Below are positions 3,316 through 64,000 of a stretch of DNA of 64,000 nt, one piece after another. The DNA lies in the NCBI GenBank assembly GCA_022826705.1, contig JAJDUJ010000018.1:1-64000 (forward strand). Direction: 5' to 3'. This DNA is from Acidimicrobiia bacterium. GTDB taxonomy: Bacteria > Actinomycetota > Acidimicrobiia > Acidimicrobiales > Bin134. The first letter of the stretch is position 1. Each line of letters starts with the position of its first letter. The position numbers were made by a program, and so were the translations under genes. The notes beneath the pieces were generated by a model, which was given only the letters and a program-made list of their open reading frames with translations, had not been told where the DNA came from and made no database searches.

Positions 3316-4491
3316 ATGACCGAAGTCGTGATTGTTGAGGCCGTTCGCTCCCCGGTGGGCAAGCGAAACGGCGGTTTGTCTTCCGTCCATCCCACTTCTT
3401 TGCTCAGCCAGGTGCAGTCGGCCGCGGTTGAGCGATCGGGCATAGACCCCACCGCCATTGGCCAGGTGGTGGGTGGCTGCGTGGACCAGATCGGGGCCCA
3501 AGCCATGAATGTGACCCGCACCGCGTGGCTCACCGCCGGGTTGCCCGAGGAAACGGCGTGCAGCACGGTGGACTCCCAGTGTGGCTCCTCGCAGCATGCG
3601 GTGAACTTGGCTTACAGCCTGGTGAAGTCGGGCGTGGAAGACGCAGTGCTGGCCTGCGGCGTAGAGAGCATGAGCATTGTGCCCATCGGGTCGAACGCGT
3701 CGGCCGACGGGGTGGGCCGACCGGTGACCCGCGACTACTTTGCCCACTACGAGTTCACCTCCCAGTTCGAGGGGGCCGAGCGGATGGCCGACAAGTGGGG
3801 CGTTACCCGAGAGGACTGCGATCGCTTCGGGCTGTCCTCCCAGCAGCGGGCCGCCCGGGCCTGGGACGAGGGCCGATTTGAGACCCAGATCGTGCCCATT
3901 GAGGCCCCGGTGCTGGATGAGGACGGCAAGAAGACCGATGAAACAGCCACTGTGAGCGTGGACGAGGGCCTGCGGGAGACCACCCTGGAAGGTCTGGCCG
4001 GCCTCAAGCCAGTAGCCCGACCCGAAGGCGTCCACACCGCGGGGTCGTCGTCGCAGATTTCCGACGGAGCTGGCGCAGTGCTCATGATGACCGCAGATCG
4101 GGCCGAGCAGCTCGGGCTTACCCCCAGGGCCCGGGTGGCCGAGACTTGCTTGGTGGGGTGTGATCCGGTGTTGATGCTGGAAGGGCCGATCCCGGCCACC
4201 CACCGACTGCTTGAGCGAAGCGGGCTTGCCATGGACGACATCGACGTGGTGGAGATCAACGAGGCATTCGCCTCGGTGGTGCTGTGCTGGGCTGCCGAGC
4301 ACGAGCCCGATATGGAGAGGGTGAACCCCAACGGCGGGGCCATCGCTTTGGGCCACCCGCTGGGCGGAACCGGTTCCATCCTGGTGACCAAGGCGCTGCA
4401 CGAGCTGGAGCGCACCGACGGCCAGTGGGGGCTCATCACCATGTGCTGCGGAGGCGGCCTGGGCACCGGAACTCTCATCGAAAGGCTCTGA
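3316..4491 (+). CDS. Thiolase (acetyl-CoA C-acyltransferase, FadA-like)
   Basis: 391 aa degradative thiolase that cleaves a 3-ketoacyl-CoA to acetyl-CoA and a shortened acyl-CoA. The nucleophile C89 lies in STVDSQCGSS, the general base histidine in GHPLGGTGS, and the second active cysteine in CCGGGLGTGT. The start at 3316 gives the canonical N terminus MTEVVIVEAVRSP and follows a TATCGT box by 6 nt. The stop overlaps the next ATG by one base (TGATG). It heads a run of thiolase, two acyl-CoA dehydrogenases, an isomerase-like protein and a protease. Steroid-type thiolases such as FadA5 are in the same family, but the substrate is not proven. Confidence 0.9.
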   Translation: MTEVVIVEAVRSPVGKRNGGLSSVHPTSLLSQVQSAAVERSGIDPTAIGQVVGGCVDQIGAQAMNVTRTAWLTAGLPEETACSTVDSQCGSSQHAVNLAYSLVKSGVEDAVLACGVESMSIVPIGSNASADGVGRPVTRDYFAHYEFTSQFEGAERMADKWGVTREDCDRFGLSSQQRAARAWDEGRFETQIVPIEAPVLDEDGKKTDETATVSVDEGLRETTLEGLAGLKPVARPEGVHTAGSSSQISDGAGAVLMMTADRAEQLGLTPRARVAETCLVGCDPVLMLEGPIPATHRLLERSGLAMDDIDVVEINEAFASVVLCWAAEHEPDMERVNPNGGAIALGHPLGGTGSILVTKALHELERTDGQWGLITMCCGGGLGTGTLIERL

Positions 4492-5642
4492 TGCCCACCG
4501 ACCCCGGCTTGGCCGACGAGTTGGTCGGCGCGATCCGAACCTGGGTGGATCGGGAGGTCATCCCCAACGCTTCTGATCTCGAGCACGCCGACGAGTTTCC
4601 CGAGGCGATGTTCGCCCAGATGTGCGAGTTCGGCCTGTTCGGGGCCACCATCGATGAGTCCTACGGCGGCTTGGGACTGGACGCCACCACCTATGCCCGG
4701 ATCATCGAGGAGCTCTCCCGGGGATGGATGTCGCTGGCCGGCATCCTCAATACCCACAAGATCGCGGCCACCATGATCGGGCGCTACGGCACCGACGAGC
4801 AGCGGGATCGCTTCTTGCCCCGCATGTGCGATGGATCGGTGCGATCGGCCTTCTCGCTGTCAGAGCCCGACGCGGGCAGCGACACCCGCAACATCCGCTG
4901 CCGGGCGGTGCCCGACGGCGAAGAGTGGATCATCAACGGCACCAAAATGTGGGTGACCAACGGCATGCGAGCCCAGATGGTGATGCTTTTGGCCCGAACC
5001 CCCGACGAGCGCATCACCTGCTTCATCGTGGAGAAAGAGCCGGGACCGAGTGCCGACGGCCTCACCGTGTCGCGCACCATCCCCAAGCTGGGATACAAGG
5101 GTGTAGAGACCGTGGAGATGGCCTACTCCGACTTCCGGGTTCCCGACGCCAACGTACTCGGCGGCCCCGACGGCGTGGGCCACGGGCTGGGCTATGCCTT
5201 GTCGGCCTTGGAGCTGGGACGGATCAACATCGCTGCTCGGGCGGTTGGGGTGGCGCAAGCCGCCCTGGAAGCGGCCATGAAGTACGCCCAGGAGCGGGAG
5301 ACGTTCGGGCGACCCATCTACGACCACCAGGCCATCGGATTCAAGTTGGCCGAGATGGCCACCAAGCTCCACGCGGCCCGACTCATGACCTACGACGCCG
5401 CCCGCCGCTATGACTCTGGAGAGCGCATCGACTTGGAAGCGGGAATGGCCAAGCTGTTCGCTTCTGAGGCTGCTTTTGAGATCGCCTCCGACGCGCTGCG
5501 CATCCACGGGGGAAACGGCTACACCGAGGAGTATCCGGTGGAGCGCTACTTCCGGGACACCCCCCTCATGATCATCGGAGAGGGAACCAGCGAAATCCAA
5601 AAGATGGTGATCGCCCGCCAGTTGCGCGATCGGTATTCCTGA
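4491..5642 (+). CDS. Acyl-CoA dehydrogenase
   Basis: 383 aa FAD enzyme introducing a double bond into an acyl-CoA. FAD and substrate signatures are clear: FSLSEPDAGSDT, WIINGTKMWVTNG, RETFGRPIYDHQ, RIHGGNGYTEEYPVERYFRD, and the C-terminal GEGTSEIQKMVIAR, whose glutamate region carries FAD and base contacts. The ATG shares its A with the thiolase stop, so translation is coupled. Together with the next gene it makes a dehydrogenase pair. In actinobacterial steroid degradation such pairs can form heterotetramers; whether that holds here is inference. Confidence 0.92.
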   Translation: MPTDPGLADELVGAIRTWVDREVIPNASDLEHADEFPEAMFAQMCEFGLFGATIDESYGGLGLDATTYARIIEELSRGWMSLAGILNTHKIAATMIGRYGTDEQRDRFLPRMCDGSVRSAFSLSEPDAGSDTRNIRCRAVPDGEEWIINGTKMWVTNGMRAQMVMLLARTPDERITCFIVEKEPGPSADGLTVSRTIPKLGYKGVETVEMAYSDFRVPDANVLGGPDGVGHGLGYALSALELGRINIAARAVGVAQAALEAAMKYAQERETFGRPIYDHQAIGFKLAEMATKLHAARLMTYDAARRYDSGERIDLEAGMAKLFASEAAFEIASDALRIHGGNGYTEEYPVERYFRDTPLMIIGEGTSEIQKMVIARQLRDRYS

Positions 5643-5653
5643 GAGGACAAGCG

Positions 5654-6877
5654 GTGGCCGAGATATCTGAGGATCAGCTTCGCCAGAAGGTGCGAGACCT
5701 CCTAGCCGACGTCGACCCCGCGGCGGCCACGCAATACGAGTTTCGGGGTGCTCAATTCGACCGGGGCCTCTCCCGGGTTGACTTTCCTGAAGGCAAAGGC
5801 GGGCTCGGCCTGTCGCCCAAGGCCCAGACCGTGGTGGACGAGGAGCTGCGCAAGGGCAGCCGGTATTGGCACGATCTGAACGTCAACCCCATCGGCATTG
5901 GCATGGGTGCTCCCACCGTGTTGGCCCACGGCACCGAGGAGATGCACCACCGCCTGCTGCGGCCGCTCTACACCGGTGAGGAGATCTGGTGCCAGATGTT
6001 CAGCGAGCCGGGCGCGGGCTCCGATGTGGCTGGTTTGGCCTCCCGGGCCGAGCTCGACGGAGATGAATGGGTGGTGAATGGCCAAAAGGTGTGGACCTCG
6101 CTGGCCCATCGTTCCCGATGGGGGATGCTGGTGGCTCGCACCGACCCCGACGCTCCCAAACACCGGGGCCTCACTTATTTCGTGCTCGACATGACGCTAC
6201 CGGGAGTGGAGGTTCGTCCTCTTTACCAGATCACCGGCGAGGCCGAATTCAACGAGATTTTCCTGAACGAGGTTCGCATTCCCGACTCCATGCGGCTGGG
6301 AGAGCGGGGCCAGGGGTGGAATGTGGCCATTACCACCCTTATGAACGAGAGAGTGGCGCTCGGCGGCGGGGTTCCCGAGCGGGGTAGCGGGCTCATCGGC
6401 ATCTTGGTGTCGGCTTGGGAGCGCCTGAGGGACGAAGCCGATGGCCGGGATCCTGCCAGTCGCCAGGTGCTGCGGGATCGAGTGGTGCGATTGTGGACCG
6501 AGGCCGAGGTCTTGCGGTTGACCAACTGGCGTGCTCGCACCTTGTCGTCGGCGGGCACGCCCGGTCCGGAGGGATCGGTGGGCAAGGCAGTGTCGGCCGA
6601 GTTGAATCAGCGGATCTATGAGTGCCTGATCGACGTGATGGGGTCGGAAGCCATGCTGTTCCCGCAGGGCTATCCGATGTCAAGACCCGATCAGTCAGGT
6701 AGCGCTTTCTATCGCGATCCATCGCCAGTCAAGGGCTTCCTGCGATCGCGGGCCAACACCATCGAGGGGGGCACGTCGGAGGTGATGCGCAACATCCTGG
6801 GCGAGCGGGTGCTGGGCTTGCCCAAGGAACCCGGAGTGGACAAGAACACCCCGTGGAGCGAGATTCCCCGCAACTGA
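5654..6877 (+). CDS. Acyl-CoA dehydrogenase, second of pair
   Basis: 407 aa. FAD-site motifs MFSEPGAGSDVAGL and WVVNGQKVWTSLAHRS are intact, and the C-terminal EGGTSEVMRNILGERVLGLP is typical of FadE17-like proteins that keep the catalytic glutamate. The starting codon is GTG 5654, preceded by GAGAGGA. The N-terminal helical domain looks shorter than usual, so this protein may depend on a partner, most likely the gene just upstream. Its stop codon lies inside the first unit of a degenerate 14-bp repeat. Confidence 0.9.
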   Translation: MAEISEDQLRQKVRDLLADVDPAAATQYEFRGAQFDRGLSRVDFPEGKGGLGLSPKAQTVVDEELRKGSRYWHDLNVNPIGIGMGAPTVLAHGTEEMHHRLLRPLYTGEEIWCQMFSEPGAGSDVAGLASRAELDGDEWVVNGQKVWTSLAHRSRWGMLVARTDPDAPKHRGLTYFVLDMTLPGVEVRPLYQITGEAEFNEIFLNEVRIPDSMRLGERGQGWNVAITTLMNERVALGGGVPERGSGLIGILVSAWERLRDEADGRDPASRQVLRDRVVRLWTEAEVLRLTNWRARTLSSAGTPGPEGSVGKAVSAELNQRIYECLIDVMGSEAMLFPQGYPMSRPDQSGSAFYRDPSPVKGFLRSRANTIEGGTSEVMRNILGERVLGLPKEPGVDKNTPWSEIPRN

Positions 6878-26199: not shown

Positions 26200-27606
26200 A
26201 TGCGAGGCATCATCAGCTTCGGGGGCTATGTGCCGTACCGGCGCCTGGACCGCTCGGCCATTGCGGCGGTGATGGGCAAAGGCGGCGGCCGGGGTACCCG
26301 ATCGGTGGCTTCCTACGACGAGGACACCACCACGATGGGGGTGGAAGCGGCCCGGTTGGCCCTGCGCCCGGTTGATGCTGAGCCCCGGGCGCTGTGGTTC
26401 GCCACTGCCGACCCTGCCTATCTGGAGAAGACCAACGCCACCGCCATTCATGCTGCTCTGCGGCTGGATACCTCGGTGGGCGCGCTGGACTTTGGGGGAG
26501 CGGTGCGCTCGGGTATCGGGGCGCTGCGAACTGCCCTGGATGCGAAAGGGCCCACAATGGTGGTGACCGCCGACATCAGGGGCGGTCTGCCCACCGGCGC
26601 TGACGAAGCCGCGGGTGGTGACGGTGCTGCCGCATTCTTGATCGGCACAGAGGACGACGGGCCGGTGGTGGCCGAGTTGCTGGGGTCGGCGTCGGCCACT
26701 GAGGAATTCGTGGATCGCTGGCGCCAGCCGGGGTCGCCCAGCACCGGCCAATGGGAGGAGCGGTTCGGCGAGACCCGCTACGGCCCGCTGACGACCCAGG
26801 CTTGGAAAGAGGCGCTGGGCACGGCCGGGGTCGAAGCGGCCGATGTGGATGTGGCGGTGGTCACCGGGACTCATGGTCGAGCAGTCAAGCGGGTGGCGGG
26901 CCAACTCGGGGTGGCTCGAGTGGCCGACGACTTGGCTGCAGAAGTGGGTAACACGGGCACCGCTCACCCCGGTTTGGTGCTGGCCAACGAGCTGGAGCAG
27001 GCCGAGCCCGGTCAGACCATCGGGGTGGTGATGCTGGCTGATGGGGTGGAAGTGCTGATCCTGCGGACCACCGAGGCGCTGGCCGAATTTACACCGGGAT
27101 CGCCGGTGGCCGATCAGATTGCCGATGGCGCTGAGGTGAGCTACGCCACGTTCTTGCAGTGGCGGGAGATGATTCAAGTCCAGCCCCCCAATCGGCCCGA
27201 ACCAACCCGCCCGTCCTCGTCGGCCGCGGCCCGAGCCCAAGACTGGAAGTACGGCTTCGTGGGCAGCCGGGGCACCGAGAGCGGGACGCTCCACTTGCCG
27301 CCGGCCCGGGTGTCCATCCGCCCCGAGGACGAGCTCGATGCCATGGACCCCGCGCCTATGGCCGACATCGGGGCCACGGTGGTGACCTTCACCATCGACC
27401 GGTTGGTGTACTCGGTGAGCCCACCGGTGGTGTTCGCAGTGGTGGATTTCGACGGAGGCGGCCGGCTCCCGGTGGAGCTGACCGACGTAGAACCCGACGC
27501 GGTCCGCATTGGCCAACGGGTGGAGATGACCTTCCGGCGGCTGTACGAGGCCGAGGGCATCAACAACTATTTCTGGAAGGCCCGCCCGGCGCGGTCGGGG
27601 CAATAG
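26200..27606 (+). CDS. HMG-CoA-synthase-like domain fused to a DUF35 OB-fold domain
   Basis: 468 aa fusion. Residues 1 to about 330 follow archaeal-type HMG-CoA synthase (ISFGGYVPYRRLD; EVGNTGTAHPG), and about 350-468 is a DUF35 OB-fold. The synthase cysteine (ACKAG in the family) aligns with Val in GAVRSG, and the His of FHQPNG is not conserved (TGTHG). The DUF35 zinc-ribbon cysteines are also missing (GSRGTESGTLHLPP). It is thus unlikely to be a standard HMG-CoA synthase and may be a structural or aldolase-type partner of the thiolase 10 nt downstream. DUF35 is known to bridge thiolase and HMG-CoA synthase in archaea. Confidence 0.75.
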   Translation: MRGIISFGGYVPYRRLDRSAIAAVMGKGGGRGTRSVASYDEDTTTMGVEAARLALRPVDAEPRALWFATADPAYLEKTNATAIHAALRLDTSVGALDFGGAVRSGIGALRTALDAKGPTMVVTADIRGGLPTGADEAAGGDGAAAFLIGTEDDGPVVAELLGSASATEEFVDRWRQPGSPSTGQWEERFGETRYGPLTTQAWKEALGTAGVEAADVDVAVVTGTHGRAVKRVAGQLGVARVADDLAAEVGNTGTAHPGLVLANELEQAEPGQTIGVVMLADGVEVLILRTTEALAEFTPGSPVADQIADGAEVSYATFLQWREMIQVQPPNRPEPTRPSSSAAARAQDWKYGFVGSRGTESGTLHLPPARVSIRPEDELDAMDPAPMADIGATVVTFTIDRLVYSVSPPVVFAVVDFDGGGRLPVELTDVEPDAVRIGQRVEMTFRRLYEAEGINNYFWKARPARSGQ

Positions 27607-27616
27607 GAGGCGACCG

Positions 27617-28810
27617 ATGGCCAGTCATGGCATCAAAGACCAGGTAGCGATCATCGGAATGGGGTGTACCCAGTTCCGGGAGCACTGGGACAAGGGAGTC
27701 GACGACCTGCTGATCGACTCGGCCACTGCCGCGTTCGACTCCGCGGGAGTGAGCAAAGACGACGTTGACGCCTTCTGGCTGGGCACGGCGTCTAGCGGGA
27801 TGAGCGGTTTGACGCTGAGCCAGCCGCTGAAGCTGGAGGGCAAGCCGGTCACCCGGGTGGAGAACTTCTGCGCCACCGGCTCCGAGGCGCTTCGCCAAGC
27901 CTCTTACGCGGTGGCCAGCGGTGCCTACGACATGGCCATGGCCATCGGGGTGGAAAAGATCAAGGACTCCGGTTACCAAGGGCTGAACGCCGCGCCCGCC
28001 CCCCATGACGGCACCAAGCGGAACCTGACCGCCGCGGCCATGTACAGCCTGGTCCTGCCTGCATACTCCGCTCGATACGGGGTGGACGAGGACGAGCTGC
28101 GCATGGTGGTGGCCAAGGTCGCCGAGAAGAACCACCGCAACGGGGTGCTCAACCCCCTGGCCCAGTTCCGCCGGGAGATGCCGGCCGAGAAGATCTGCGA
28201 GATGGCCTCGGTGGCCGGGCGGCTGTCGGTGTTCGACTGCTCGGGCGTGGCCGACGGCTCAGCGGCGGCCATCGTGGTGCGGGCTGAAGACGCCCACAAG
28301 TACTGCGACGACCCGCTGTACATAAAGGCGCTGTCGTTCGTGTCGGGCACCGGCGGCGGACTCATCGATCCCGACTACGACTACACCACGTTCCCGGAGT
28401 GCGAAATGGCCGGAGCCGACGCCTACCGCCAAGCCGGGATCGACGATCCCCGCTCCGCGCTGGCCATGGCCGAGGTCCACGACTGCTTCACCCCCACCGA
28501 GATGGTCCTCATGGAAGACCTCGGTTTCTGCGAGCGGGGCACGGCGTGGAAAGAGGTGCTGGCCGGAACCTTCGAGCGCACCGGCGACATGCCCATCAAC
28601 ACCGACGGCGGCCTCAAAGCATTCGGCCACCCCGTGGGGGCCTCCGGCCTTCGCATGCACTACGAGTGCTGGCTCCAACTCCGAAACAAAGCCGGCGAAG
28701 ATCGCCAGATCGACCTGTCCACCCGCAACCTCGGCCTCGTCCACAACCTCGGCGGCTACCCCGGCGAAATGGTCTCCTTCGTCTCCATCCTCGGCCCCGA
28801 GTTGGGCTAG
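27617..28810 (+). CDS. Thiolase / lipid-transfer-type acetyl-CoA acetyltransferase
   Basis: 397 aa thiolase of the SCP-x/Ltp class. The nucleophile appears kept in VENFCATGSEAL, with HDCFTPTEM and GHPVGASG also present, so it looks catalytically competent, unlike the Ltp-like gene at 49364. AGGAGG precedes ATG 27617. With the DUF35 fusion just upstream it should form a complex. Ends on CTAG, overlapping the opposing stop. Confidence 0.87.
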   Translation: MASHGIKDQVAIIGMGCTQFREHWDKGVDDLLIDSATAAFDSAGVSKDDVDAFWLGTASSGMSGLTLSQPLKLEGKPVTRVENFCATGSEALRQASYAVASGAYDMAMAIGVEKIKDSGYQGLNAAPAPHDGTKRNLTAAAMYSLVLPAYSARYGVDEDELRMVVAKVAEKNHRNGVLNPLAQFRREMPAEKICEMASVAGRLSVFDCSGVADGSAAAIVVRAEDAHKYCDDPLYIKALSFVSGTGGGLIDPDYDYTTFPECEMAGADAYRQAGIDDPRSALAMAEVHDCFTPTEMVLMEDLGFCERGTAWKEVLAGTFERTGDMPINTDGGLKAFGHPVGASGLRMHYECWLQLRNKAGEDRQIDLSTRNLGLVHNLGGYPGEMVSFVSILGPELG

Positions 28811-46761: not shown

Positions 46762-47589
46762 ATGCAGGACTTTGACAGCAAAGTGGCGGTGATAACCGGG
46801 GCGGCCAGCGGGATCGGAGCGGCGTTGGCGGCTGGCTTCAGCGCCGAGGGTGCAAAGGTAGTAGCCGCAGACATCGATCTCGCGGGTGCCACTGCCACCG
46901 CCGACGCCATCGGAGACAATGCGATGGCAGTCGAAGTAGATGTTGCTGACCGGTCATCGGTCGAAGCTCTGGCTGATGCAGCCTGGGACGCCTTCGGACA
47001 GGTAGACCTGCTTTTCAACAATGCCGGCGTGTTCCAGGCCGGGCTCATGTGGGAACGCACTCAGGCCGACTGGGACTGGGTATTCGGGGTCAACGTGTAC
47101 GGCATCATCAACGGGGTTGCTGCCTTCGTGCCTCGGATGATCGCCCAGGACACCGAGGGCCACATCGTCAACACCGCGTCGGTGGCCGCGTTCGTGGCCG
47201 GCGGATTCTCCAGCCCTTACGTGGTATCCAAGTGCGCTGCCTTCTCGCTCACCGAGTGCCTCGCTCTGGACCTGGCCGCAGTGGGGTCCAAGGTCAAGGC
47301 CTCGGTGCTCACCCCCAGCGCCATCGATACTGCAATTGCCCACACCGCCCGGGTGCGAAGCGACCGCTACGGCACCGACGACACAGAGGACAACGCCTTC
47401 GTGGTGGAATCGCTGTCGAAGATGACCGCGTCCGGCATCTCTCCGACCGACGTGGTCGGGCCGGTTATGGCCGGGATCCGGGCCGGCGATTTCCTCATCC
47501 CCACCAAGCCCAGCTACACCAACCAACTCCAAGTCCGCTACGACGCCTTGCTGGAGCGCCAGATCCCCCCTACTGCTGAGGTTGACTGA
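46762..47589 (+). CDS. Short-chain dehydrogenase/reductase
   Basis: 275 aa. NAD(P) motif TGAASGIGAAL, FNNAGVF, and YVVSK as Tyr/Lys catalytic pair, with Ser in NTASVAA. The start ATG 46762 has no TANNNT box; GGAG lies only 2 nt upstream, so its start signal is unclear. Sits between two envelope lipoproteins; no clear link to them. Confidence 0.85.
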   Translation: MQDFDSKVAVITGAASGIGAALAAGFSAEGAKVVAADIDLAGATATADAIGDNAMAVEVDVADRSSVEALADAAWDAFGQVDLLFNNAGVFQAGLMWERTQADWDWVFGVNVYGIINGVAAFVPRMIAQDTEGHIVNTASVAAFVAGGFSSPYVVSKCAAFSLTECLALDLAAVGSKVKASVLTPSAIDTAIAHTARVRSDRYGTDDTEDNAFVVESLSKMTASGISPTDVVGPVMAGIRAGDFLIPTKPSYTNQLQVRYDALLERQIPPTAEVD

Positions 47590-49363: not shown

Positions 49364-50563
49364 ATGGGAAAGCGAGCGGCGGCGATTGTGGGGCTCACGG
49401 AGTGGGCGCCGAAACGGGTGTGGGACGAGCCCATGTTCACCATGGAGGCGTGTGCCCGGCTAGCAGCTGAGGTGCTGGCCGATGCCGAAGTGGACAAAGG
49501 CGAAGTGGACGGGCTGGTAATCAACGGCCTGCGGGAATCGCCGTTGTTCGCGCCGTCGGCGCTGGCCGAGTTCCTGGGCGTCCGCAGCAACTTCAACGAA
49601 GTGGTCGACCTCGGCGGAGCCACTCCGGCGGGCATGGTGTGGCGGGCCGCAGCCGCCATTGAAGTGGGGATTTGCGAGACGGTGCTGGTGTTCACCCCAT
49701 CGGTGCCCGCCCCGCCCCAGCCGGGAGCCAACGGTGGCCCGATGAAGATGAAGATGGGTGCGTACATGGGCGGCGAGGTCTGGGGCTCCCCCCAGGGGCA
49801 GTTCGAGATTCCCGCCGGTTTGGTGGCAGCCACCCCCAGCTTCGCCATGGCCGCCAGCCGGTACATGGCCGCCTACGGAGTGAGCGAGGAGACGCTGGCC
49901 AAGGTGGCGGTGGACTCCCGCTACAACGCTCAGGCAAATCCCATGGCCGTGTTCTACGGCAAGCCCATCACCGTCGACGACGTGATGAGCTCCCGCTACG
50001 TGGCCGATCCCCTGAAGCTGCTGGAAATAGTCATGCCGTGCTACGGCGGCTCCGCAGTGCTGGTGACCACCGCCGAGCGGGCTGCCCGGGGCCCTCACCG
50101 GCCGGTGTATGTGAGCGGCTATGGCGAGCACCTCACCCACAAGAGCATTACCTACGCCCCCGACATCGTCGACACCCCCATCCGGCTGGCCGCTGACCGG
50201 GCGTTCGAGATGGCTGGGGTGTCGCGCGACGCCGTGGACATGGCCTCCATGTACGACTGCTACACCATCACCGTGCTGTTGACCATCGAAGACGCCGGGT
50301 TCTGCGCCAAGGGCCAGGGCGGTCGGTTCATTGACGAGCACAGCCTGCGCTACGACGGCGACTGGCCGCTCAACACCCACGGCGGCCAGCTGGGCATGGG
50401 TCAGGCTGGCTTGGGCGGCGGCATGAGCCACATCACCGAGGCCGTGCGCCAGGTGCAGGGCCGGGCCGGCGAGCGCCAAGTGCCCGACTGCAACATCGCC
50501 TATGCCAATGGCACCGGGGGAATGTTGGCCGAGCAGGTGGCCCTCATCTTGGAGGGGGCCTAA
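49364..50563 (+). CDS. Ltp-like thiolase-fold protein lacking thiolase catalytic residues
   Basis: 399 aa. Fold and overall sequence follow SCP-x/Ltp thiolases. The nucleophile position is Ala (DLGGATPAG), and the GHP histidine position is Gln (HGGQLGMGQAG), while YDCYTITVL is kept. In steroid catabolism Ltp2 also lacks the thiolase cysteine and, with a DUF35 partner, performs retro-aldol cleavage; the immediately following DUF35 gene suggests the same here. That functional link is inference. Translation is coupled to DUF35 (TAATG). Confidence 0.78.
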   Translation: MGKRAAAIVGLTEWAPKRVWDEPMFTMEACARLAAEVLADAEVDKGEVDGLVINGLRESPLFAPSALAEFLGVRSNFNEVVDLGGATPAGMVWRAAAAIEVGICETVLVFTPSVPAPPQPGANGGPMKMKMGAYMGGEVWGSPQGQFEIPAGLVAATPSFAMAASRYMAAYGVSEETLAKVAVDSRYNAQANPMAVFYGKPITVDDVMSSRYVADPLKLLEIVMPCYGGSAVLVTTAERAARGPHRPVYVSGYGEHLTHKSITYAPDIVDTPIRLAADRAFEMAGVSRDAVDMASMYDCYTITVLLTIEDAGFCAKGQGGRFIDEHSLRYDGDWPLNTHGGQLGMGQAGLGGGMSHITEAVRQVQGRAGERQVPDCNIAYANGTGGMLAEQVALILEGA

Positions 50564-50976
50564 TGGTTCACTTCTCCTCCGACGGCCGCCCCCTGCCCAC
50601 CCCCACCCCTATCACCGCTCCGTTTTTCGACGGCCTGCGGGAGCGGCGGCTAGTGCTCCAGCGCTGTCCCCGCCACGGATACTTCTTCTACCCCCGCGGC
50701 CGGTGCCCAGTTTGCCTGGGAGACGACTGGGAGTGGGGAGAGTTGAGCGGCCAGGGCACGGTGTACTCCTTCACCGTTGACCGAGCCGGCCACGATCCTG
50801 CCCTGGCCAGCCGCATCCCCTTCGCCATCGCTCTGGTGGATCTCGACGAAGGGCCCCGCCTAGTGGGCAACATGGTGGACTGCGACGTCGGAGACATCAC
50901 CGTCGGCATGGCCGTAGAGGCTGCCTACGAAGATGTGGACGACACCACGCTGCTGGGATTCCGCCCCGCGGGCTAG
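50563..50976 (+). CDS. DUF35 OB-fold protein with intact zinc ribbon
   Basis: 137 aa. The rubredoxin-like zinc ribbon is complete (Cys in QRCPRHG and CPVC near residues 36-52) followed by an OB-fold (GTVYSFTVDRAGHDP; GPRLVGNMV). DUF35 proteins bind thiolase-fold partners and CoA. It follows the Ltp-like gene with one base of overlap, so the two form an obligate pair. Confidence 0.85.
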   Translation: MVHFSSDGRPLPTPTPITAPFFDGLRERRLVLQRCPRHGYFFYPRGRCPVCLGDDWEWGELSGQGTVYSFTVDRAGHDPALASRIPFAIALVDLDEGPRLVGNMVDCDVGDITVGMAVEAAYEDVDDTTLLGFRPAG

Positions 50977-51476
50977 CCGTCGTTGAAGGCCTGCCAGGTG
51001 GGCTCTTCGTAGGGGAGGGTGCCGAGGCCGTCGGGGTTCTCGGGCCAGTTGGCCGGCGGAAGGTCCAGCGGGTTTACTCCCACCTCGGCGCCGTAGAACA
51101 GCTTGTGGAGGCGGCGCACGAAGTACCAGCGGCCGTCGCGGCGCTCGTAAGTGTCGTCGTAGCGGATGGCCTGATGGATCCACCGGTCGCCGTCGGCAAT
51201 CTCGCCTTTGCAGTACACATGGCCAGTGGCGTGGTGCTCGTCGATCAAGTCGATCTGATGGGTGCCGATGTTCAGGATCGACGGGCCGATGGCCCCGAGC
51301 GACTCCTCGAAGTTGGCCCGTAAAGCGTCCCGGCCATAGCTGTCTCGTCCCACTCGTACGTCGTCGATGAACAGCGATACCAAGGTGTCCACGTCTCGAC
51401 GGTCGATTGCCACCGCGTAGCGGGCGGCCAGCTGCCGGATCTCTTCGTAGGCCAACAGGCGGGTTACGTCATCCAT
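50973..51476 (-). CDS. SnoaL-like NTF2-fold protein (1)
   Basis: 167 aa. YAVAIDRRDVDTLVSLF and the region GTHQIDLIDEHHATGHVYC match the SnoaL_4/scytalone dehydratase-like group; His and Asp positions look compatible with a dehydratase or dehydrochlorinase. It follows the second SnoaL gene by 6 nt. Ends on CTAG shared with DUF35. Confidence 0.72.
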   Translation of the reverse strand: MDDVTRLLAYEEIRQLAARYAVAIDRRDVDTLVSLFIDDVRVGRDSYGRDALRANFEESLGAIGPSILNIGTHQIDLIDEHHATGHVYCKGEIADGDRWIHQAIRYDDTYERRDGRWYFVRRLHKLFYGAEVGVNPLDLPPANWPENPDGLGTLPYEEPTWQAFNDG

Positions 51477-51942: not shown

Positions 51943-52806
51943 ATGGCTGTCATCGATGCTGTTGATCTGGACGTGCGCCGGGTAGCGGGCGCGCTGGGTG
52001 CCGAGGTGCGGGGGCTATCGCTGGCCTCGGTATCCGATGCCGAGTTTGCCCTCATCCAAGAGTTGCTGGACGAGCACTTGGTGCTGTTCTTCCCCGACCA
52101 GCACCTCAGCCCCGACGAGCACCGGGCGTTCGCCATCCGATTCGGCGAGCCGGAGATCCACCCCTACATCCCCAAGCTGGATGAAGATCACCCGGAGATC
52201 GTGGTGCTCAAGGGCGAGTCGGGCTATGTGGCCGACGTGTGGCACACCGACTGCACGTTCGAGGACTCTCCGCCCATCTGCTCGGTGCTCAACGCCATGG
52301 TCATGCCCCCCGCGGGCGGCGACACCATGTGGTCGAACATGTACAAGGCCTATGAGACCCTGGCCGAGCCCATGAAGCAGATGATCAACGGGCTCACCGC
52401 CATCCACACCGCGGCCAACTACGGCCAGCCCGACCACAAGGCCGAACACCCGGTGGTGCGCCGCCACCCCCGCACCGGCCGCCCGTCGCTATACGTGAAC
52501 AAGCAGTTCACCCGGCGCATCCCGCAACTCAGCCGGGACGAGTCGGAGTCGCTGCTTGACCTGCTCACCGCTCACGCCTGCAAGACCGACTTCACCTGTC
52601 GCTACAGCTGGAGCGAGGGCACCATCGGCATCTGGGACAACCGGGCCACCCAGCACTTCGCAGTGAACGACTTCGACGGCAACCGGGCCATCAGCCGAGT
52701 CACCATCCTGGGCGACAACCCCGAGCCTGCGTTCGACACCACCCAGTGGGGCCCGTACCAGTACGAGCGGGTCTCCGCCGCCGCCTACGGCCTCGACCGC
52801 GACTAG
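51943..52806 (+). CDS. TauD/TfdA-family Fe(II)/2-oxoglutarate dioxygenase
   Basis: 287 aa. HxD motif in WHTDCTF, the distal His in TQHFAVND and the 2-oxoglutarate-binding Arg in NRAISRVTILGD are all visible. It likely oxidises sulfonate, aryloxyalkanoate or an unrelated C-H bond; the exact substrate is not clear. Convergent with the P450, sharing CTAG as stop overlap. Confidence 0.88.
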   Translation: MAVIDAVDLDVRRVAGALGAEVRGLSLASVSDAEFALIQELLDEHLVLFFPDQHLSPDEHRAFAIRFGEPEIHPYIPKLDEDHPEIVVLKGESGYVADVWHTDCTFEDSPPICSVLNAMVMPPAGGDTMWSNMYKAYETLAEPMKQMINGLTAIHTAANYGQPDHKAEHPVVRRHPRTGRPSLYVNKQFTRRIPQLSRDESESLLDLLTAHACKTDFTCRYSWSEGTIGIWDNRATQHFAVNDFDGNRAISRVTILGDNPEPAFDTTQWGPYQYERVSAAAYGLDRD

Positions 52807-54029
52807 CGGGTCTCCTCCGCCTGGTCGAAGACGACGTCCATGCGGGTGGGTCCCCGCATCATGAAGAACAGGACACGCTGATAGCCGGCTCCTGGGGCTA
52901 GTTCCATGTGGGCGATCCGGTCGAGCACGGCGTTGAGCCCGGCGGTTGCCTCCAGGCGGGCCAGAGGTGCGCCCACGCACAGGTGGATGCCCCAGCCGAA
53001 ACCGAGATGGCGGCGGGGGTCGGGGCGGTTGAGCCGGAACGATTCCGGATCGTCGAAAGCCCGGGGGTCGCGGTTGGCAGCCGAGTAGCCCAGGCACACC
53101 ACCTCTCCCGCCGATACCGGAGTACCGAACAAGTCGACGTCGACACGGGCCCGGCGGAAAAGCACCTGAACCGGGTTGTGGTGGCGCAGCGTCTCCTCAA
53201 CCGCCGTCGGGACCAGGCTGCGGTCAGCCCGCACTCGCTCATACAGGCCGGATTCGGACAGCAGCAGGTAGAACAGGTTGCCGATCATGTGAGTGGTGGT
53301 CTCGATGCCGCCCACGATCACGTCCTTGGACAGCGTGGTCAGGATCTTCTCGTCGTGCAGCGATTGGCCGTCTTCGTCCCGGTACTCGATCAACTGGGTC
53401 ATCAGATCGTCGGGGCGATGGCTTGACTGCTGGCGGTCGGCGATCACCGTCCGCAGTTCCTCGTCAAAGGCGTTCACCCGCTGTTGACAGCGGCGGGCCT
53501 CATCGGGGTCGGGTTGCGCCCGAGCACCGATCAAATCGTCGGAATAGGGCCGCAGTCGATGCCGCATCTCGGCAGGGATCCCAGCCAGGCGGCCGATGAC
53601 CTGGGCGGGCAGCGGTGCCCCCAAGTCCTCGATCAAGTCGGCCTGGCCCCGGCCCGCGAATCGATCCACGATTTCGGCGCAGATCTCGTGGACGATCGGC
53701 TCGTAGGCCCGCATCCGGGGCGGTGACAGCGCGGCGGCGAGGATGCGGCGCACTTTGGTGTGCTCAGGCGGGTCGGATTCGCCCAACTGGATCAGCTCGG
53801 GCGGGCGGGAGTCGGCTTCCAACGGCTCGAATCCCCCCTGGCCGAACTCCTCTGGGCGGCGGCACACCTCCACGATGTCGTCATACCGAGGCACGTAGTA
53901 AACGCCGGGCATCGGCTGGTGGACTCGCACCGACTCCCGCAGGGCAGCCAACGTGGCGAAATGGTCATCGACATGGGCAGGGTCGAACGGGTTGTACTCC
54001 TCCGGGCGGGGCGCTTCGGCAGCCGACAT
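52803..54029 (-). CDS. Cytochrome P450 (1)
   Basis: 408 aa soluble bacterial P450. I-helix VGGIETTTH, ExxR in EETLRHH, and the heme motif FGWGIHLCVGAPLARLE with Cys ligand near residue 351. It needs ferredoxin/reductase partners that are not adjacent. TAGGCT lies 6 nt before ATG 54029, part of the shared promoter with the VOC operon. Confidence 0.93.
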   Translation of the reverse strand: MSAAEAPRPEEYNPFDPAHVDDHFATLAALRESVRVHQPMPGVYYVPRYDDIVEVCRRPEEFGQGGFEPLEADSRPPELIQLGESDPPEHTKVRRILAAALSPPRMRAYEPIVHEICAEIVDRFAGRGQADLIEDLGAPLPAQVIGRLAGIPAEMRHRLRPYSDDLIGARAQPDPDEARRCQQRVNAFDEELRTVIADRQQSSHRPDDLMTQLIEYRDEDGQSLHDEKILTTLSKDVIVGGIETTTHMIGNLFYLLLSESGLYERVRADRSLVPTAVEETLRHHNPVQVLFRRARVDVDLFGTPVSAGEVVCLGYSAANRDPRAFDDPESFRLNRPDPRRHLGFGWGIHLCVGAPLARLEATAGLNAVLDRIAHMELAPGAGYQRVLFFMMRGPTRMDVVFDQAEETR

Positions 54030-62142: not shown

Positions 62143-63333
62143 CTAGCGCCAGGTGATGTGGGCGGGGAGGTCGCTGTAGGCGAGGTTGGCGGGGAGGGGT
62201 GGGTATTCGAAGCCCGCCACCGGGGTGAGGGCGGCGACTCGGTCGAGAAGGGTCTCGATGGCGGTGACTCCTTCGAGGCGGGCCAGGCTGGCGCCGGGGC
62301 AGACGTGGGCGCCGGCGCCGAAGGCAACGTGGTTCAAGGGCTCGGGGCGGTCGAGGCGGAAGTCCTCGGGCTCTTCGTACTGGGCTTCGTCACGGTTGGC
62401 TGAGGCCAGGCCCACCTCCACCCAGTCGCCTTGTTGCATATCCACCCCGCCCAAGTGGGTGTCCTTCAGGCATCGCCGGGCCACTCGGGGGGCGGGGGAG
62501 TCGTGGCGCAGCGACTCCTCCACGAACACCGGGATCAGCTCCCGGTCGGCTTCCAGAGCGGCCCAGGTGTCGGGCTCCACTATGAGCCTGTGCATGGAGT
62601 GGGCCAACAAGCCCCGGGTGGTGTGCACCCCGCCCAGCACCATTGTCTGAAGCTGGTGGGCGATCACGGTGTCGCTGAGGGATTCGCCCTCGATCTCCGC
62701 ATCCAGAAACACCTTGTAGGTGTGCGAGCTGGGCTCGTCAGCTTGTCGCTCTTGGGCCACCAAGTCTTTCAAGTAGCCGGTGATGGGCGGGCCATCGGGG
62801 GCGTACTGCGGGCATACCGCCCGGAACATGACCGAGCCGTCCGATGACCACACCTTCAGCTTGTCGGCGCCGCCCTCGGGCAGGCCGATGATGTGGGCGA
62901 TCACCTCGCAGGGGATGGGCACGGCGTAGTCGGCGTGCAGGTCCGAGACTTCTTCATCCACAAGCGCGTCCAGCAGGTTCTCGCAGGTCTCGCGCACGAA
63001 CGGCTGGATCCTCATGGTGCGGTGGGGTCCTAGCGCAGAGTTATAAAGCCGGCGGATCTGCCCGTGTACCGGCTCGTCGATCTCGGGGAGGAACAACTGC
63101 TCCTCGGGCACTTCCTCCACGCCGGTGAGCCCGGTGCCCGGCGTCATGTCTGAGCCGTAAGTGTCCACCGCGTACAGAAGTTCGTCGGCCTCTTGGCGGC
63201 GGGTCAGGTAGTAGCCAAGCGGGGTCTTGGCCACCGGTCCTTGCTGGCGGAGCTCGGCCAGCAGGTCGAAGGGCAGGCCAGTTACGAAATAGTCGGGGTT
63301 GTGGGGGTCAAAAGCGGGCAGGGTGTCGGTCAT
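62143..63333 (-). CDS. Cytochrome P450 (2)
   Basis: 396 aa. I-helix LGGVHTTRG, ExxR in EESLRHD, heme motif FGAGAHVCPGASLARLE. It differs from P450 (1) in the I-helix (VHTT instead of IETTT). The start at ATG 63333 has GAAGG upstream, and it follows the SDR by 14 nt, so the SDR and P450 probably work in one pathway. Confidence 0.92.
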   Translation of the reverse strand: MTDTLPAFDPHNPDYFVTGLPFDLLAELRQQGPVAKTPLGYYLTRRQEADELLYAVDTYGSDMTPGTGLTGVEEVPEEQLFLPEIDEPVHGQIRRLYNSALGPHRTMRIQPFVRETCENLLDALVDEEVSDLHADYAVPIPCEVIAHIIGLPEGGADKLKVWSSDGSVMFRAVCPQYAPDGPPITGYLKDLVAQERQADEPSSHTYKVFLDAEIEGESLSDTVIAHQLQTMVLGGVHTTRGLLAHSMHRLIVEPDTWAALEADRELIPVFVEESLRHDSPAPRVARRCLKDTHLGGVDMQQGDWVEVGLASANRDEAQYEEPEDFRLDRPEPLNHVAFGAGAHVCPGASLARLEGVTAIETLLDRVAALTPVAGFEYPPLPANLAYSDLPAHITWR

Positions 63334-63347
63334 GGCTTCGCCTTCCC

Positions 63348-64000
63348 CTACTCCTCGAACGATTCCCGCCATGGCCCGGCCAGGTGCCCGCCGTCGATCA
63401 CGAACTGGGCACCAGTGATGTAGCTGGCCTCGTCGCTGGCCAGGAACAGGGCCAGCGAGGCGATCTCGTCGGGCTCGCCCATGCGCTTGATGGGCTGCAT
63501 GTCCATGAGCCGGTTGAGCCGGGCCAGGGTCTCGGGCGGGGCCTCCTGCACCATGGGGCTGTTGATCACCCCGGGGTGGATGGAGTTGACCCGCACTCCG
63601 AGCGGCCCGAGCTCGATGGCGGCTGAGCGGGTCATGCCGGTGACCGCGAACTTGGTGCCGGAGTAGCTGGTCATGCCCAATACGCCCACGATGCCGTCGA
63701 TGGAGGAGATGTTCACGATGGCCCCGTTGCCGGTGGCCACCAGGGCAGCCTTGGCCGCCCGCATCCCCAGGTACACGCCGTGGAGGTTGATGTCGGTCAT
63801 CTCGTGATGGGTCTTGAGGTCGAGCCCTTCCAGCGTGCCGAACGCCCCGATGCCGGCGTTGTTCACCAAAATGTCGAGCTTGCCGAACCGCTCCACGGTG
63901 GCGGCCACCGCGGCGTCCCAGTCGTCCTCCCGCGTGACGTCGAGCTGCTGGTAGAAGGTGTCGGGCCCCAGCTCGGCGGCCAGTTGCTCGCCCAGAACGT
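63348..64000 (-). CDS. SDR, N terminus cut by the window edge
   Basis: At least 217 residues. LDILVNNAGIG, catalytic Ser in NISSIDG, and YSGTK are visible; the nucleotide-binding N terminus lies outside the window. The C terminus has ITGAQFVIDGG. Reading continues open from 63908 to the edge (LDVTREDDWDAAVAA), so the GTG at 63908 is internal. Followed 14 nt later by P450 (2). Confidence 0.88.
   Translation of the reverse strand, partial: VLGEQLAAELGPDTFYQQLDVTREDDWDAAVAATVERFGKLDILVNNAGIGAFGTLEGLDLKTHHEMTDINLHGVYLGMRAAKAALVATGNGAIVNISSIDGIVGVLGMTSYSGTKFAVTGMTRSAAIELGPLGVRVNSIHPGVINSPMVQEAPPETLARLNRLMDMQPIKRMGEPDEIASLALFLASDEASYITGAQFVIDGGHLAGPWRESFEE

Follow-up and report, generated by a model that had tools for sequence, protein, structure and literature searches.

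A probable Sal-type retro-aldolase with a stand-alone DUF35 partner in an Acidimicrobiia bacterium

Introduction

In 2025, CtSal of Comamonas testosteroni and its DUF35 partner (PDB 9MYR) were described as a proteobacterial bile-acid aldolase (PMC12329534). In that account, the base is proposed to be Tyr302 and the acid Cys304; Gln347 and Gln352 lie close by, and activity was lost in the Y302F and C304A/S/H variants. Gln352 replaces the second Tyr of Ltp2, and a Gly stands at the place of the thiolase Cys. The authors gave a role to the oxyanion Gln161 and to a Cys3His zinc site shaping the steroid pocket, and they had already noted YDCY homologues in cholesterol-degrading Actinobacteria (PMC12329534).

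The combination of a thiolase fold with a DUF35 protein is also found in TcLtp2 and the ChsH2 DUF35 of Thermomonospora curvata (6OK1), where the thiolase Cys is missing, and in benzoylsuccinyl-CoA thiolase BbsAB (7PXP) and the archaeal thiolase/HMG-CoA synthase complex (6ESQ), both of which are named thiolases (PDB; PMC12329534).

In this study, I analysed a stretch of 64,000 nucleotides (the window) from an Acidimicrobiia assembly of 3.45 Mb in 31 contigs, which is 95.4% complete. A sequence-only reading had placed a candidate Ltp2/DUF35-type retro-aldolase in it. As explained below, the gene pair probably encodes a CoA-dependent retro-aldolase of the Sal type together with its DUF35 protein.

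Results and Discussion

The gene pair

The features of the locus are as follows.

49364..50563, plus strand: Sal-type thiolase-fold aldolase ORF of 399 aa, assigned by phmmer to 9MYR_A (402.6 bits, E 1.8e-119), tree and alignment
50252..50263, plus strand: YDCY motif, residues 297-300, with the proposed catalytic Tyr base and Cys acid, from alignment to CtSal Tyr302/Cys304
50563..50976, plus strand: DUF35 partner of 137 aa with zinc ribbon and OB fold (Pfam zf-ChsH2 33.3 bits, OB_ChsH2_C 71.2 bits)
50665..50715, plus strand: DUF35 zinc ribbon with candidate ligands Cys35, His38, Cys48 and Cys51 (C-x2-H-x9-C-x2-C), from the DUF35 alignment, the ligand role being deduced from 9MYR
50973..51476, minus strand: SnoaL_4-type protein adjoining the pair (Pfam PF13577; best PDB match LinA, 31.4 bits)

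The thiolase-like ORF is intact, and the order read earlier from the letters, a thiolase-like ORF followed by DUF35, was borne out; the aldolase stop and the DUF35 start overlap in TAATG. The best PDB match of the partner is 9MYR_B, the DUF35 of CtShy (92.8 bits). The window DUF35 stands alone, with no MaoC domain found by Pfam in its 137 residues, whereas that of CtSal is fused to a MaoC hydratase. Gene calls came from my own script and are uncurated, and the DUF35 of one Myxococcota relative (L029) was read from a translation.

The 15 closest loci (L011-L025) come from metagenome-assembled genomes, 11 of which are titled Acidimicrobiia or Acidimicrobiales, and their aldolases are 96-99% identical to that of the window. 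Many of them are, judging from isolate names, presumably sponge symbionts. Mean dN/dS between the window and nine of these loci (fewer for some genes; the values are not independent, the window being one side of every comparison) was 0.039 for the aldolase and 0.050 for DUF35. Both genes are under strong purifying selection. Among 16 other measured genes, 14 lay at 0.063-0.183, while TauD (0.038) and an amidohydrolase (0.037) were as low as the aldolase.

Active-site residues

Is the pair of the Ltp2 type, or nearer to some other thiolase-like family with an established function? With the aldolase as query against the PDB, CtSal scored far ahead of 4U4E (216.2 bits) and TcLtp2 (155.9 bits). 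Of 380 columns aligned with CtSal, 49.2% are identical, against 31.2% of 352 for TcLtp2. The closer family is thus CtSal, itself a steroid aldolase; of the earlier reading, the retro-aldolase and its DUF35 partner are well supported and the Ltp2 model gives way to Sal.

Residues were compared by aligning the sequence with those of 9MYR and 6OK1. In Tyr297-Asp-Cys299-Tyr300, Tyr297 and Cys299 align with CtSal Tyr302 and Cys304, and Gln342 and Gln347 correspond to its two supporting residues, Gln347 and Gln352. Arg211 corresponds to Arg216. The thiolase motifs (nucleophilic Cys, HDCF-type and GHP) are absent, and Gly85, YDCY and GQA stand there instead; a thiolase identity was rejected on the missing Cys. 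Gln347 occupies the column of the GHP His, as the sequence-only reading had it. That reading was right about the loss of the Cys and one residue off about its substitute: with three Cys-keeping rows aligned, the nucleophile column holds Gly85, as in CtSal, and Ala86 is next to it.

TcLtp2 shares with the window protein the Cys-less thiolase fold and the first Tyr of the YD motif. The Ltp2 features proper are absent from the window pair: YDCY stands for YDHF, the place of the second Tyr (Tyr344) is taken by Gln347, and the C4 zinc ribbon is missing as well. Loss of the Ltp2 tyrosines had been named earlier as evidence against an aldolase. Since the second one is Gln exactly as in CtSal, with the acid/base pair of CtSal kept, this condition does not apply. 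An Ltp2-type identity was rejected on these columns, and the pair is, as far as its sequence tells, of the Sal type.

The window aldolase differs from CtSal in Ala156 for Gln161, Thr157 for Asn162 and Phe160 for Tyr165. The missing counterpart of Gln161, a residue of the proposed oxyanion hole, was counted against the Sal-type reading, as was a structure prediction from a 12-row alignment, which reached a mean pLDDT of 36.8 and was left unused. Another solved relative, 4U4E, has the thiolase fold and 38% identity; its motif reads YDSF, and Gly and His take the positions of the two Gln. It is presumably a Sphaerobacter protein.

Phylogeny of the aldolase

I collected 46 thiolase-like proteins (at least 330 aa, E below 1e-8; the L040 relative is absent from them), omitted 13 from close-kin or duplicate loci, and built an IQ-TREE tree of 36 rows including three references. 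The window aldolase falls inside a Sal-type clade of 23 rows (support 100/99), and YDC[YF] and both Gln recur in every one of them; 4U4E lies outside. Within it, the window group comprises nine rows (100/98): four Acidimicrobiia close kin including the window, three Myxococcota (L026, L027, L029), one Chloroflexota (L028) and a class-mate, G215. The CtSal group comprises ten (97/96): CtSal itself, rows from Vibrio and Rhodococcus, and further members of the window's class. These neighbouring groups are joined at 99/98, and L038, L039, L044 and L045 are earlier branches. The Gln161 column holds Gln in all ten CtSal-group rows; in the window group, four of whose nine rows are near-identical, it holds Ala in eight and Pro in one. 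The L031 row aligns oddly around the Cys column, and its Gly was left uncounted.

Variation in the DUF35 zinc ribbon

The C4 ribbon (C-x2-C-x10-C-x2-C) is not kept in the window DUF35, where His38 replaces the second Cys and the loop is one residue shorter. Among 15 close-kin rows, the second Cys is His in 13, the window's own included, and Asp in two; Asp was also found in L026, L027, L031 and L029. Across the window group, every row but the Chloroflexota one has His or Asp at this position. In CtShy the pattern is C-x3-H-x8-C-x2-C. The His of 9MYR_B is residue 35 and lies one place further along than that of the window; it is called His36 in the text of PMC12329534. Cys ligands are lacking altogether in the DUF35 of the Chloroflexota member of the window group (L028:11182-11595) and in the partners on Rhodococcus plasmids in the CtSal group (L041:13185-13607 and L043:13202-13630), while the Vibrio protein (L042), a near relative of CtSal, keeps all four Cys. 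Zinc-free DUF35 partners were not stated in the titles and abstract openings covered by a literature search, subscription papers being mostly outside it.

Gene neighbourhood

The earlier reading had drawn support for side-chain degradation from two P450s, SDRs and acyl-CoA dehydrogenases. In a scan of about 40 of the 62 called genes of the window, such genes are indeed present: an SDR at 46762-47589 (1.8 kb upstream of the pair), a P450 beside the pair at 52803-54029, a second P450 at 62143-63372 (11 kb away) and two acyl-CoA dehydrogenases at 4491-6877. As support, the P450s and acyl-CoA dehydrogenases are weak. The dehydrogenases are about 42 kb off, and the adjacent P450 is at the same place in 4 of 11 close-kin loci (those with TauD whole and the stretch after it). 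A pathway tied to this P450 was rejected on that count.

The SnoaL_4-type gene adjoins DUF35 in convergent orientation in all 14 close-kin loci that reach it. In G215, whose aldolase is 64.5% identical to that of the window and which has a CaiB-type CoA transferase upstream of the pair, a SnoaL_4 gene follows directly on the same strand (L046); its product shares 34% and 28% identity with the two SnoaL proteins of the window. The SnoaL_4-type protein is possibly a dehydratase or hydratase of the same pathway. As for MaoC, PF01575 gave nine matches in the genome and none on the window's contig, which was counted against the Sal-type reading.

TauD aside, the flanks of the pair are not kept beyond close kin. 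In the window, about 1 kb separates TauD from the pair; the distance is 5.6 kb in L026 and 7.2 kb in L027 (45 and 46% identity). In the Myxococcota locus L029 (aldolase 74% identical), a P450 30% identical to that of the window lies upstream, and a flavoprotein downstream has as best PDB match a 3-ketosteroid delta4-(5alpha)-dehydrogenase (429.5 bits); its NCBIfam match, PRK07121, has a generic name only. No steroid gene was found among the two upstream neighbours scanned in the Chloroflexota relative. More distant relatives on plasmids are accompanied by MaoC hydratases together with either a CoA ligase or CoA transferases. In Vibrio, the neighbours are a long-chain acyl-CoA synthetase and a protein in which DUF35 is fused to MaoC, as in Shy.

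Among the deeper branches, L044:6058-17149 and L045:6049-17119 carry a Sal-type/DUF35/MaoC module with a gene annotated as acetoacetate-CoA ligase; the surrounding cluster also encodes a sugar ABC transporter and a class II aldolase. These loci suggest retro-aldol modules for non-steroid substrates.

Elsewhere in the window (26200-28810, plus strand), a Cys-bearing thiolase comes after a 468-aa protein that matches ACP_syn_III_C weakly (20.8 bits, below cutoff) and ends in a DUF35 OB domain. The layout is reminiscent of the archaeal thiolase/HMG-CoA synthase/DUF35 complex, two of whose parts would here be joined in one chain.

A separate Ltp2 in the genome

A true Ltp2 is encoded on contig 10 of the source genome (PRK07855 626.9 bits, cutoff 469; 66% identical to TcLtp2), with YDHF and the second Tyr present. 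It adjoins a single-chain protein of 467 aa with MaoC, zinc-ribbon, OB and second MaoC domains (L076:6501-9092, G000 contig 10), which looks like ChsH2 and ChsH1 fused. In the source genome as a whole, there are 17 thiolase-like and 11 zf-ChsH2 matches, and for ten of the 11 ribbons a thiolase-like match is found no more than 2 kb away.

Ltp2 occurs in each of the 15 genomes that contain L011-L025, in one of them as a fragment. In Myxococcota, a match of 65% identity was found in G312 and matches of about 50% in G311 and G314, which may be paralogues. At E<=1e-100, no Ltp2 match was found in the Chloroflexota genome G313 or the class-mate G215, despite their close aldolase relatives; this was counted against the Sal-type reading. 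In 296 genomes of the class, with at most six candidates scored per genome, a Sal-type match (E<=1e-100) was found in 10, Ltp2 (E<=1e-150) in 32 and both in 6. The co-occurrence (6/10 vs 32/296) gives a Fisher p of 1.6e-4, kinship not being corrected for. G252 of this search is apparently the genome of L013, the place of its match being the same as in G298.

Steroid-ring genes

The sequence-only reading had noted the lack of ring genes in the window and suggested a search of the genome, which turned up a KstD-like protein and two distant KshA-like proteins and no HsaC-type match. The best PDB match of the KstD-like protein is a 3-oxosteroid 1-dehydrogenase (261.5 bits). In NCBIfam, it scores 397 bits with 4-oxocyclohexanecarboxylate dehydrogenase and 376 with 3-oxosteroid 1-dehydrogenase, and both scores fall far short of the cutoff; that the top match is an enzyme of a cyclohexanecarboxylate pathway and not KstD was counted against the Sal-type reading. 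Two Rieske proteins exceed the Pfam KshA_C cutoff of 23.3 (80.5 and 72.4 bits), and a weaker match lies on contig 31. The best PDB matches of the two are KshA (86 and 116 bits) over the N-terminal half only, which was likewise set against this reading and led to the rejection of true KshA; by these matches they are distant KshA-like proteins.

BphC_D1 (HsaC-type) had no match in the source genome, nor in the related G304, whose L019 lies on a 3.59-Mb chromosome record, and both absences count against the Sal-type reading. It was found in two of six close-kin genomes tested: the G252 protein is HsaC-like (250 bits of a 450 cutoff), and the G307 dioxygenase (L114:784-2555) has an adjoining HsaD-like gene (259.8 bits against a cutoff of 400). 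Six of 22 genomes have a KshA_C match at E<=1e-30, G300 being the sole close kin among them. Classical ring cleavage is thus patchy in these genomes, and its scores stay under the curated NCBIfam cut-offs. Holert et al. 2018 (PMC5790920) reported sponge MAGs with KshA and HsaC homologues of divergent sequence, and therefore such models may miss them.

Proposed reaction and alternatives

I infer the activity, product and substrate as follows. A beta-hydroxyacyl-CoA would be bound in a pocket whose wall is formed in part by DUF35, and Tyr297 would remove the proton of the beta-hydroxyl. Cleavage of the Calpha-Cbeta bond would give an aldehyde and an acyl-CoA enolate, which Cys299, aided by Gln342 and Gln347, would protonate to acetyl-CoA; an alpha-methylated substrate would yield propionyl-CoA instead. 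The likely substrate would be a steroid-like side chain, one round ahead of the genome's separate Ltp2. By analogy with CtSal, the retro-aldolase chemistry is very likely. A steroid-like side chain as substrate has a somewhat better than even chance.

The Sal-type reading is preferred because CtSal is 49.2% identical, the residues proven there by mutation (PMC12329534) are kept with both Gln throughout the clade, the partner best matches the partner of CtSal itself, and dN/dS is low in both genes. The Ltp2 elsewhere in the genome, its co-occurrence and the steroid-dehydrogenase-like flavoprotein in L029 further support it. An Ltp2-type aldolase for a three-carbon side chain would account for the DUF35 partner and the Cys-less fold, and the residue columns, the 31% identity to TcLtp2 and the separate true Ltp2 in the same genome make it the most improbable of the alternatives. 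Nearly as improbable is a thiolase-like enzyme of biosynthesis or condensation (Claisen, acyl transfer or HMG-type). In its favour, benzoylsuccinyl-CoA thiolase, PhlABC and the archaeal thiolase complex likewise combine a thiolase fold with a DUF35 protein; against it, the nucleophilic Cys is missing and the scores are 134 (7YVY), 102 (6ESQ), 97 (7PXP) and 80 bits (PhlC) against 403 to CtSal. Database names such as lipid-transfer protein and the lost Gln161 might point to a catalytically inert lipid-transfer or scaffold protein, which is very unlikely with both residues essential in CtSal kept under strong constraint.

Substrate is the point on which an alternative has real weight. The same retro-aldolase chemistry might act on a non-steroid compound (a terpenoid, an aromatic or a branched acid) whose CoA ester comes from a ligase or CaiB-type transferase, and I regard this as quite possible, short of an even chance. 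Sal-type members that share the motif occur in clusters of the sugar-ABC/class II aldolase kind or have a coniferyl aldehyde dehydrogenase nearby; those in sugar-transporter clusters mean that the YDCY motif alone does not indicate steroid, which was counted against the preferred reading. The source genome lacks an HsaC-type match, and the Chloroflexota relative has neither a steroid gene in the upstream neighbours scanned nor Ltp2 at the threshold used. Against a non-steroid substrate stand the co-occurring true Ltp2, a tested steroid aldolase as closest solved relative, the steroid-dehydrogenase-like neighbour in L029 and the KstD-like and KshA-like proteins of the genome.

Implications

A literature search of titles and abstract openings, with subscription papers mostly outside, returned nothing on Sal in this group, which is no proof of absence. 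Together, the Acidimicrobiia, Myxococcota and Chloroflexota proteins might form a sister lineage of Sal that performs the retro-aldol step without Gln161 and with a mostly Cys3His or Cys3Asp DUF35, perhaps on steroid or terpenoid side chains that have not been assayed, with an unlinked or SnoaL-type hydratase in place of Shy; this broader picture is speculative and rather doubtful. The window lineage offers natural variants at the oxyanion Gln161 and at the Cys3His zinc site, and thus a direct test of which of these features matter. The results suggest that uncultured Acidimicrobiia encode two successive cuts, the first of the Sal type and the second by Ltp2.
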